Part shown: positions 6,242-12,400 of the stretch, piece by piece | Layout: the number at the start of each line of letters is the position of its first letter | Position numbering within the stretch: position 1 is the stretch's first letter | Notes under the pieces: model-generated | Told to the model about the DNA's origin: nothing | Database searches by the model: none | Seen by the model: the letters and a program-made list of their open reading frames with translations, nothing else | Made by a program: the position numbers and the translations under genes | NCBI RefSeq assembly: GCF_025377685.1 | Contig: NZ_JACEHK010000013.1 | Location: 1-64,000 of the forward strand | Direction: 5' to 3' | DNA: 64,000 nucleotides | Origin: Anaerobacillus sp. CMMVII | Lineage (GTDB): Bacteria > Bacillota > Bacilli > Bacillales > Anaerobacillaceae

Positions 6242-7081
6242 ATGTCGGATATTGAAAAATATAATAATGAAACGTTTGAATATTGGAAACAAATAAATGA
6301 GTTTGGTGACGACTTTTGGTATGCAAGAGATATACAAAAGATATTACAATATAAGGAATGGAGAAACTTTATAAAAGTTATAGAGAAAGCACAAGAAGCA
6401 TGTGATGGCAGTGGGAATGATGTTTCTGATCATTTTGTTGAAGTCAACAAAATGATCGATTTGGGCAAAGGAGCAAAACGTGAGGTTAATGATATCATGT
6501 TATCTCGTTATGCTTGTTATCTAATCGTACAAAATGCTGATCCTAAGAAAGAGGTAATAGCGATAGGACAGACGTACTTTGCTGTACAAACACGTAAACA
6601 AGAATTACAAGAGCAATTCGAAACAATGAATGAAACTAAAAAACGTCTTGCAATTAGAAATGAGCTAAAAGAACACAATAAATCATTAGCAGAAGCGGCC
6701 AAAAGTGCAGGAGTAAATACACCAATAGATTATGCGGTTTTTCAAAATCACGGTTATAAAGGCCTTTATGGCGGGTTAGGTGCTAAGGAAATTCATGAGA
6801 GAAAAGAATTAAAGAAAAATCAACAAATTTTGGATCATATGGGGAGTACAGAGCTTGCAGCTAATCTTTTTCGAGCTACTCAAACGGATGAAAAATTGCG
6901 TAGGGATAACATAAAAGGAAAAATAAATGCTAACCAAACTCATTTTGAAGTTGGTGCAAAAGTGAGGCAGACAATACATGAACTTGGTGGGACGATGCCA
7001 GAAGATTTGCCAACACCTGAGAAAAGCATAAAACAAATTGAAAAGTTGGAACGAAAAACCAAGATAAGTGAAAAAGACTAA
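6242..7081 (+). CDS. dinD: DNA-damage-inducible protein D (BRO-N domain)
   Basis: This 279-residue protein is DinD-like. The N-terminal BRO/antirepressor-type domain shows FEYWKQINEFGDDFWYARD, QYKEWRNF, and the conserved LSRYACYLIVQNADPKKEVI near residue 90. The C-terminal half carries the DinD signature region NHGYKGLYGGLGAKEIHERK and GSTELAANLFRATQT. DinD is an SOS-induced protein; the E. coli homologue inhibits RecA filament activity in vitro, but its role in Bacillaceae is not settled. A perfect LexA box sits in its promoter at 6184-6197, which agrees with the assignment. The ribosome-binding site is GGGGGA shortly before the ATG. It is monocistronic and followed by a family A repeat. Confidence 0.92.
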   Translation: MSDIEKYNNETFEYWKQINEFGDDFWYARDIQKILQYKEWRNFIKVIEKAQEACDGSGNDVSDHFVEVNKMIDLGKGAKREVNDIMLSRYACYLIVQNADPKKEVIAIGQTYFAVQTRKQELQEQFETMNETKKRLAIRNELKEHNKSLAEAAKSAGVNTPIDYAVFQNHGYKGLYGGLGAKEIHERKELKKNQQILDHMGSTELAANLFRATQTDEKLRRDNIKGKINANQTHFEVGAKVRQTIHELGGTMPEDLPTPEKSIKQIEKLERKTKISEKD

Positions 7082-10111: not shown

Positions 10112-10261
10112 TTTTATCCTACGAAGTTATTGGAGTAATTAGCAGCCAAACCAAAGCGAGCAAAGTGAAACAGACAAAGGAAAAGAGTAGAAGTAAAGAA
10201 TTGGATAAATTCATCTTTTTAGCTAATATAGTTTATATTAAATGGATGGAGGGTGATAAAT

Positions 10262-10693
10262 ATGACCAATGAATACCAAACTTTACTCAATGGAATGTTT
10301 ATATGCGGCTTAAAATCTGTAGAGTCTGTAATTGAAAATGAAGAAATAGACATTGTTTTGGATTTACGTGCAGAGGCTCAAGGAGATAGTGATTACGGTT
10401 CTGTCAAAAGACTTAGAGTTCCATTAGAAGACGGTATTTCGAACCAAACTCAACTTTTACAACAAGGAATACAACATGCAGTGAATGCTTATACAGAAGG
10501 GAAGAAAGTTGTCCTTCATTGAAAGGGTGGGAAAAGTCGCACAGGTAGTGTGGCAGTAGGCGTTTTAATAGAACTTGGTATCGCAAAAAATATAGAAGAA
10601 GCTATTAATATGGTTAAGAAGATCAGACCTGAGGTTGAAATTCATCCGCTTTTAATCAGTGATTTAAGGGAACTTTATCCGGACTACAGTTAA
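10262..10693 (+). CDS. Dual-specificity/tyrosine phosphatase with in-frame TGA at the catalytic cysteine
   Basis: GGAGGG lies eight bases before the ATG at 10262. The frame reads 86 residues to KKVVLH, then TGA at 10520-10522, then continues without interruption as KGGKSRTGSVAVGVLIELGI and EEAINMVKKIRPEVEIHP to a TAA at 10691. Read through, this is a full-length phosphatase of 143 residues with the cysteine-phosphatase P-loop HCX5R present as H-[TGA]-KGGKSR. The N-terminal half has the usual strands, with LDLRAEAQGDSDYG where the general acid region would lie. The TGA replaces exactly the nucleophilic cysteine, one base change from TGT or TGC. It is either a nonsense mutation giving an inactive 86-residue fragment, or a selenocysteine codon. 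A hairpin follows at 10536-10554. No neighbour suggests its substrate. Confidence 0.8.
10536..10554 (+). promoter_or_regulatory. SECIS-like hairpin downstream of the TGA codon
   Basis: GTCGCAC pairs with GTGTGGC (seven pairs, two of them G-U) around the loop AGGTA. The loop starts 21 bases after the TGA. Bacterial selenocysteine insertion elements such as that of E. coli fdhF also place a GGU-containing apical loop about 19-21 bases after the UGA. Part of the sequence is dictated by the conserved S-R-T-G codons, so it could be chance. Confidence 0.35.
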
Positions 10694-10984: not shown

Positions 10985-12400
10985 ATGATGATGATCAGAC
11001 AAGGGCTAAATCCTTACCTTCCTTCATGGGAGTATATCCCAGACGGAGAACCACATGTTTTTAACGACAGAGTCTATGTTTATGGCTCACATGACCGATT
11101 TAATGGTCATGTATATTGCTTAAATGATTATGTATGTTGGTCTGCACCTGTTGATGATTTGTCTGACTGGAAGTATGAAGGTGTCATTTATTTGAAAACA
11201 GATGATCCATTAAATCAGACTGGACATATGTGCTTGTATGCTCCTGATGTTACACTTGGTCCAGATGGAAGATATTACTTGTACTATGTATTAGACAAAG
11301 TATCAATTGTTTCAGTGGCCGTTTGTGATACGCCAGCAGGAAAGTATCAATTTTATGGATACGTAAAATATGCTGATGGTACTCGTCTAGGGGAAAGAGA
11401 GGGTGATGAACCACAGTTTGATCCTGGAGTATTGACTGAAGGGGAAAAAACATATCTATATACTGGATTTTGTGCGATTGGAGACCAGTCGAGAAAAGGG
11501 ACTATGGCAACAGTACTTGGCCCGGATATGCTTACAATTCTAGAAGAGCCGGTGTTTATTGCTCCGAGTGAACCTTATAGTGAGGGAAGTAGTTTTGAAG
11601 GGCATGAGTTCTTTGAAGCGCCTTCTATGAGGAAGATCGGCGATACCTATTATTTTATTTATTCCTCTATCGTTTTCCATGAACTTTGTTATGCTACGAG
11701 CAAAAGCCCTACGGAAGGTTTTGTATATAAGGGGGTCATTGTGAGCAATAATGATCTTCACATTGACACATATAAACCTGCCGACAAACCGATGTTTTAC
11801 GGCGGAAATAACCATGGTAGTATCGTCGAAATAAATAATAAATGGTATATCTTTTATCATCGACATACTAATGGATCTAACTTCTGCCGCCAAGGATGTA
11901 TGGAACCAATTGAAATATTAAACGATGGGACAATTCCACAAGTAGAGATGACTTCATGTGGTCCGAACGGCGGAGCACTAATAGGCCGTGGAGAGTATCC
12001 AGCCTACCTGGCATGCAATTTGTTCTACCGTGTAGAGGAAAAGTACTCAGGAGATGTATGGATGGATAGTCATTTCCCTAAGATTACTCAGGATGGAAAA
12101 GATGGGGATGAGGAAATAGGCTATATTGCCAATATGCTAGATTCTGCTACAGTTGGATTTAAGTATTTCGACTGTAAGGATATAAAGACGATTAAAATTA
12201 AAGTTAGAGGATATTGCAATGGTGCTTTTGAGGTAAAGACTTCATGGGATGGTCAAGCACTGGCTAAAATCCCGGTTGAATTTACAAATGTATGGACGGA
12301 ATATACTTCTGTGATTACAATTCCAGATGGAATACATGCTTTGTATTTTACGTATACCGGAAACGGTAGAGCTAGTTTAGCTTCTTTTTCATTGGAATAA
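10985..12400 (+). CDS. Glycoside hydrolase family 43 with C-terminal beta-sandwich
   Basis: This 471-residue protein is a five-bladed beta-propeller GH43 enzyme (beta-xylosidase, alpha-arabinofuranosidase or related). Typical motifs are GLNPYLPSWEYIPDGEPHVF at the start, YAPDVTLGPDGRYYLYY near residue 85, and HEFFEAPSMRKIGDTYYFIY near residue 205 with the proposed acid glutamate. NNHGSIVEINNKWYIFYHRH follows near 275. Residues from about 345 form a CBM6-like domain (IKIKVRGYCNGAFEVKTSWD, ending in a beta strand). No signal peptide is present, so it acts inside the cell on imported oligosaccharides. The sugar-uptake locus at 41-50 kb would fit as a source of substrate, but it is 29 kb away. 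The start codon has a second ATG next to it and a short GGAG upstream. Confidence 0.88.
   Translation: MMMIRQGLNPYLPSWEYIPDGEPHVFNDRVYVYGSHDRFNGHVYCLNDYVCWSAPVDDLSDWKYEGVIYLKTDDPLNQTGHMCLYAPDVTLGPDGRYYLYYVLDKVSIVSVAVCDTPAGKYQFYGYVKYADGTRLGEREGDEPQFDPGVLTEGEKTYLYTGFCAIGDQSRKGTMATVLGPDMLTILEEPVFIAPSEPYSEGSSFEGHEFFEAPSMRKIGDTYYFIYSSIVFHELCYATSKSPTEGFVYKGVIVSNNDLHIDTYKPADKPMFYGGNNHGSIVEINNKWYIFYHRHTNGSNFCRQGCMEPIEILNDGTIPQVEMTSCGPNGGALIGRGEYPAYLACNLFYRVEEKYSGDVWMDSHFPKITQDGKDGDEEIGYIANMLDSATVGFKYFDCKDIKTIKIKVRGYCNGAFEVKTSWDGQALAKIPVEFTNVWTEYTSVITIPDGIHALYFTYTGNGRASLASFSLE

Follow-up and report, generated by a model that had tools for sequence, protein, structure and literature searches.

Does an in-frame TGA at the catalytic position of a phosphatase-like gene mark a selenoprotein, or a cysteine phosphatase gene that has started to decay? 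The question is raised by a frame found in a 64,000-nucleotide stretch of DNA from Anaerobacillus sp. CMMVII (contig NZ_JACEHK010000013.1, positions 1 to 64,000), which is referred to here as the window. A first-pass annotation, made from the sequence alone, had described a full-length cysteine phosphatase split by TGA exactly at its nucleophile, with the 56 codons beyond it open to a normal stop, and had proposed selenocysteine (Sec) at that codon. The evidence set out below argues for this proposal, and leads to a less certain discussion of what such a protein might do.

The interrupted frame and the selenocysteine machinery of the genome

The features of the locus are collected in Table 1. 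The frame comprises 86 residues, the TGA and 56 further residues up to a TAA at 10691-10693, being otherwise open, so the description of both its halves was borne out. Within it the P-loop reads H86-[TGA]87-KGGKS-R93. For all program runs the read-through protein was submitted with Cys substituted for Sec. In this form it scored 45.9 bits (E 6.5e-12) with Pfam DSPc (PF00782), whose cut-off is 33.5; an LMWPc domain gave no match at E up to 0.1, and none of the NCBIfam families matched, the one weak hit lying far below its cut-off. The AlphaFold2 model (pLDDT 86, pTM 0.85, from 12 sequences) has the DSP fold; its best structural matches were human DUSPs, over 135-136 residues and with Z up to 17.0 (Foldseek was also run). 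In the DSP superfamily the attack on a tetrahedral oxyanion, or on an ester of one, is made by a thiolate, and all 40 Cys homologues aligned have Cys in the column of the window TGA. Given this position at the catalytic Cys site, the nucleophile would be a selenolate, standing in for the catalytic thiolate of the superfamily in the attack on oxyanion or ester. Elsewhere in the window, at 6242-7081, there is a gene for a BRO-N domain protein, a kind of protein frequent in phages.

Table 1. Position of the features discussed, in window coordinates
Feature	Position	Strand	Basis or detail
Shine-Dalgarno-like GGAGGG	10248..10253	+	8 nt upstream of ATG; read from sequence
Putative DSP-fold selenoprotein gene, 143 codons, TGA as codon 87, then TAA stop	10262..10693	+	Frame, Pfam DSPc, AlphaFold2 model
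Cys15 codon, sole cysteine codon of the frame	10304..10306	+	Residue comparison
P-loop H-U-K-G-G-K-S-R (HCX5R, TGA in place of Cys)	10517..10540	+	Sequence
TGA, proposed selenocysteine codon (residue 87)	10520..10522	+	Same codon in 17 genes from 17 genomes
Proposed SECIS hairpin	10536..10554	+	7-bp stem 10536-10542/10548-10554; loop AGGUA 10543-10547

The genome has what is needed to decode UGA as selenocysteine: selA, selB, selD and tRNA-Sec, the four genes whose search had been suggested, are all present. The matches to selB and selA reached 349 and 556 bits, and that to tRNA-Sec 58.6 bits, with a TCA anticodon according to ARAGORN. The selD gene carries an in-frame TGA in its own active site (KGG-TGA-GCK), and three fdhA genes (L148, L149 and L150, on contigs C10, C2 and C1) have TGA at the U-H site. 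In the hairpins of these three genes GGU starts 18 nt past the UGA, and in the phosphatase gene 21 nt past it. Two details of annotation can be added: the TGA of selD lies at 11628-11630 on the minus strand of contig C6 (L050), the gene starting upstream of the ordinary ORF call, and there is a further Fdh-alpha match without TGA on contig C1.

Conservation of the TGA and of the hairpin behind it

Among 150 relatives searched, the family was found in 30 genomes, several of them with one TGA. Of 397 genomes of the order, 77 bear the family and ten of these 77 have TGA in it (G011 and G158 in broken copies), so the codon occurs in this family beyond chance. A scan of a genome collection with the P-loop pattern, which reaches only genes fitting that pattern, returned 24 stretches, 13 of them family members from 12 organisms: Salipaludibacillus keqinensis, Sinobaca qinghaiensis, Evansella halocellulosilytica, E. 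clarkii, Alkalicoccus saliphilus, A. chagannorensis, Halalkalibacter nanhaiisediminis, H. wakoensis, Halalkalibacterium ligniniphilum (on two contig ends), Bacillus sp. MRMR6, Alkalihalobacillus bogoriensis and Mesobacillus campisalis. The other 11 stretches were discarded as chance hits in unrelated frames (five in Pantoea, two in Clostridia-type MAGs and one each in a Zixiibacteriota MAG, Pseudomonas, Streptomyces and an alphaproteobacterial MAG), and viral contigs gave no match to the same pattern. Merging the order draw with the scan yielded 17 TGA genes in 17 Bacillales genomes, that of the window and 16 more, all 17 with the P-loop H-U-[KQ]-G-G-[KQR]-S-R. Fifteen are intact, one is decayed (A. 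bogoriensis) and one is frame-shifted just past the P-loop (G158). Within the genus a single further genome, G001, has a close homologue (58% identity), and it too carries the TGA. No TGA form turned up beyond the order: among 398 genomes of the phylum the family was present in four (E 1e-15), and TGA only in the window's own.

The comparison of orthologues at this codon, TGA against Cys, thus gave TGA in 16 genomes besides that of the window. It also bears on a possibility that the first-pass annotation had held against its own proposal, namely that this strain alone would have TGA, with relaxed selection downstream. This is not the case, as relatives share the TGA and a coding signal is kept behind it. 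In all pairs of the 15 genes compared, differences at codon positions 1, 2 and 3 were 0.43, 0.30 and 0.67 over codons 18-50 past the TGA, and 0.48, 0.37 and 0.65 over the 26 codons before it. By this pattern the frame past the TGA, behind the hairpin, is evolving as protein.

These data decide against a nonsense mutation (TGT or TGC to TGA) or a sequencing error in a Cys phosphatase gene entering decay. Such an origin would fit the two of 17 TGA copies broken by other changes, those of A. bogoriensis and G158, which count against a selenoprotein, and the absence of a conserved operon around the window gene. But the same TGA is present in 15 intact copies from many genera, the frame past it is constrained at the protein level, and it is followed by a hairpin with frozen rare codons. 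Because of the intact copies and the coding signal the pseudogene explanation is rejected, and we give it practically no weight.

The distribution of the machinery agrees with that of the TGA. SelB and tRNA-Sec were each found in 17/17 TGA genomes. In the order draw SelB was present in all ten TGA genomes, in 38 of the 67 genomes with only the Cys form and in 179 of 397 overall, an association with a Fisher p of 0.011 from which kinship was not removed. In S. keqinensis the distances from the TGA gene to tRNA-Sec and to selB are 3.4 and 3.8 kb. Two hits to tRNA-Sec exceed the gathering score in the genome of M. campisalis (G408), and two in that of Sinobaca (G398).

The stem of the hairpin, of 7 bp, begins 13 nt past the TGA and closes a 5-nt loop with GG at positions 2 and 3. 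All seven pairs can form in each of the 16 TGA genes examined (that of A. bogoriensis included, that of G158 left out), while no more than five of the seven can in the 46 Cys rows, at least five of which are genes fetched twice (0/46 reach seven). The bacterial SECIS model, as given in the accessible sections of a recent review (PMC13188914), has a loop of 3-9 nt, a stem of 4-16 bp and a G within the first two bases of the loop, at 16-37 nt from the UGA and with an energy of -7.5 or lower. The hairpin, with a 7-bp stem and a 5-nt loop whose second base is G, lies 20 nt from the UGA and agrees with that model, and the energies of the 42-nt region ranged from -9.5 to -21.2 in the 16 TGA genes. 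The stem is part of the 54-nt minimum-energy fold in 15 of them, M. campisalis adopting another fold. When synonymous codons were resampled with protein and codon usage fixed, seven pairs arose in 0.16-1.8% of the cases (0.44% for the window). Two codons of the stem, CGC and GTG, are invariant (16/16 each) although their usage in the genes of the window is 0.11 and 0.13; in contrast, a conserved Arg at codon 35 past the TGA is encoded by six different codons. The window hairpin had a z of -3.8 when compared with dinucleotide shuffles.

Other measures did not set the region apart. The total folding energy of the window sequence was not exceptional under synonymous resampling (P 0.144), and several Cys rows fold as strongly as the TGA genes or better. 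Covariation in the hairpin is slight, with one double change favouring pairing; as 66 of 500 column shuffles scored as high, it was abandoned as an argument. Near the gene, Rfam gave three weak matches, all below their gathering scores and none a SECIS. The frame-shifted copy of G158 (L130, 9592-10020) has another GGU-bearing inverted repeat past the P-loop, GGCACGA..TCGTGCC; frameshift and repeat together could reflect decay, an assembly error or a hairpin that has moved.

UGA can also be read through in bacteria without selenocysteine. This precedent lends some plausibility to a low-level read-through that inserts some other residue such as Trp, or to a product ending at codon 86, with the rest being separate or regulatory. 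Against both stand a TGA that coincides with the catalytic Cys of the homologues and substitutes for no other residue, its restriction within this family to genomes having both SelB and tRNA-Sec, and a hairpin after it whose position and loop are those demanded by the bacterial SECIS model. We regard this alternative as very improbable, if marginally less so than decay. On comparative grounds, with the conserved TGA, the Sec machinery, the hairpin and the coding signal all pointing the same way, Sec insertion can be proposed with high confidence: whatever its function, the gene very probably encodes a selenoprotein, a small P-loop protein of DSP fold in which SelB and tRNA-Sec would place selenocysteine at the UGA of codon 87, directed by the hairpin that starts 13 nt past it.

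Residues, gene context and possible function

How the Sec form differs from its Cys relatives was analysed with 40 Cys and 15 Sec rows, from which the copies of A. bogoriensis and G158 were left out. D34-L-R, E38, H86, G89-G90, S92, R93, G95 and R122 are kept in the 15 aligned Sec proteins. Residue 15 separates the two forms: Cys is found there in 13 of the 15 TGA proteins (Ser in the other two) and in none of the 40 Cys proteins, 39 of which have Gly. Residue 57, presumably the place of the general acid Asp of DSPs if the position is taken from the DUSPs, is Asp in the window protein and in 11/15 TGA proteins, and Asn in 4/15. In the tree built from these rows a main Cys branch of 39 is set apart with support 100/100. 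The Sec rows are not strictly monophyletic, since a Cys row from A. chagannorensis (L045) joins three of them on a long branch, flagged by the tree program as possibly false, in a tree whose bootstrap had not converged. This row (G133:C4) comes from a genome that also carries the TGA form; a reversal from Sec to Cys or a long-branch artefact are both possible.

The gene neighbourhoods differ as well. Arsenic resistance genes (arsA or arsB/arsC, with a Pfam check on representatives) are near 33/39 Cys loci, and a gene for the chromate transporter ChrA (PF02417) is near nine of the 16 TGA loci other than the window, vs 0/39 Cys loci, in a comparison where 30 of the 39 Cys loci span 2.3-3.4 kb and nine about 19 kb, five of the 16 TGA loci span 8 kb, A. 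bogoriensis and G158 are both counted and kinship is not removed. With respect to the TGA gene, chrA can be codirectional upstream, codirectional downstream or convergent, which makes at least three arrangements. A gene for a PadR-type regulator directly adjoins chrA in three TGA loci (L068, L070, L123). One of the 16 other TGA loci has ars genes; in the window, none was found from its start up to 30 kb. Nor is there a ChrA gene near the window copy, the chrA genes of its genome being on other contigs; its neighbours code for a UvrD-type helicase and a family-43 glycosidase, and no conserved operon was found around it. The same genome has a Cys paralogue behind arsA, on contig C2 (L002). In three plasmid records the Cys form lies within ars operons, with the order arsR-arsB-arsC-arsD-arsA-trxB-DSP in Cytobacillus firmus, and trxB adjoins the Cys relative in two of the three. 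The locus of H. ligniniphilum (L068, 1041-4928), in which the TGA gene, chrA and a PadR-type regulator gene are followed by arsR-arsB-arsC, bridges the chromate and arsenic contexts.

With a Cys branch in arsenic operons and a Sec branch often beside ChrA, the family may include a selenoenzyme of oxyanion stress, where selenium may let an oxidised P-loop nucleophile be regenerated and Cys15 could be the partner thiol of Sec87. A role in withstanding toxic oxyanions such as chromate and arsenate, suggested by the gene context of the relatives, seems to us about an even chance. Counted against it are the window copy, without ChrA or ars genes nearby, and the seven of 16 other TGA loci without ChrA; the Asn at the proposed general acid in four of 15 TGA proteins also counts against the function proposed.

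If selenocysteine is indeed inserted, two accounts of the chemistry compete with this one. The protein might be an ordinary phosphatase of proteins or small molecules acting in signalling, with ChrA as a mere frequent neighbour and selenium raising reactivity or tolerance to oxidants. The complete DSP fold and motif speak for it, as do the TGA loci without ChrA, the window copy among them. A probably related gene has been studied in Bacillus sp. CDB3: the DSP encoded by orf8 of the ars1 operon is reported to have raised arsenate resistance in Escherichia coli and not to have replaced arsC (PMC4562236). The Cys relatives are probably orthologous to orf8, judging by gene order. The failure to substitute for an arsenate reductase favours a signalling phosphatase, while the reported gain in resistance tells against it, together with the recurrence of ChrA near TGA loci in its several arrangements and the place of the Cys branch in arsenic operons. 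We consider this account a serious one, if somewhat short of even.

Alternatively, the selenol itself might reduce chromate or arsenate, forming an Se-S bond with Cys15 and being recycled by the thioredoxin system. Cys15, nearly specific to the Sec form, the relaxed residue 57, the frequent ChrA neighbour and the trxB next to the Cys relative in plasmids would all suit such a reaction. It is weakened by the two TGA proteins that lack Cys15, by trxB standing beside the Cys form and not the Sec form, and by the CDB3 relative, reportedly no arsenate reductase (PMC4562236), and we hold it to be doubtful. Taken together, Cys15, ChrA and residue 57 favour a redox involvement, while hydrolysis has the fold and the CDB3 result on its side. 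A further proposal, slightly more doubtful again, would be a natural class of selenoenzymes in which Sec in a phosphatase-type CX5R loop acts on the toxic oxyanions themselves and reduces or detoxifies chromate in concert with ChrA; Sec87 would undergo Se-S exchange with Cys15, a residue acquired along with it.

Should selenium be inserted as proposed, the family would offer a natural test of the benefit of Sec in a fold that normally carries out hydrolysis, whether as greater nucleophilicity, as a way back from over-oxidation or as new chemistry. With chromate transport linked to it and a Cys sister branch in arsenic operons, the function is open to direct test. Further cases may have been overlooked, because gene callers that read TGA as a stop would annotate them as truncated genes or pseudogenes.

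Comparison with known selenoproteins and phosphatases

Rhodaneses and the glutaredoxin-type arsenate reductase have folds other than that of DSPs. They are the functional P-loop-like relatives listed in the accessible sections of the review that gives the SECIS model (PMC13188914, 2026), where Table 1 has no phosphatase among 119 prokaryotic selenoprotein families and subfamilies and the word "phosphatase" occurs 0 times. This kind of selenoprotein is absent from the catalogues examined, as far as their accessible sections go, which is consistent with the earlier remark that a selenophosphatase was not a described class. "Phosphatase" likewise has 0 occurrences in the available text of two other papers (PMC12013277 and PMC9312934), and in that of a third it appears only for PP2C-type fusions with a peroxiredoxin (PMC2398784). 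No selenium phosphatase was described in the literature searched, outside which most subscription journals lie, so that an earlier mention is possible.

In other respects the gene resembles known prokaryotic selenoproteins, with UGA where homologues have Cys, a hairpin of the bacterial SECIS type, and SelB and tRNA-Sec in the genome. Eukaryotic DSPs (DUSP5, DUSP14, MKP5 and others) share with the window protein the fold over 135-136 residues and the active-site motif, but differ from it in sequence (about 13-21% identity), in their Cys nucleophile and in their function in eukaryotic signalling. The LMW-type arsenate reductase ArsC has a CX5R-type oxyanion loop, as the window protein does, and shares ars operons with the Cys relatives of the latter, but it belongs to a different family, Pfam LMWPc. 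The DSPs of ars operons, annotated as "dual specificity protein phosphatase family protein", belong to the same family (36-44% identity) and have in common with the window protein the fold, H-X-X5-R, D34-L-R and R122. They differ in having Cys for Sec and in lacking both Cys15 and the hairpin, and they are found in arsenic operons, whereas the TGA form is near ChrA or solitary.
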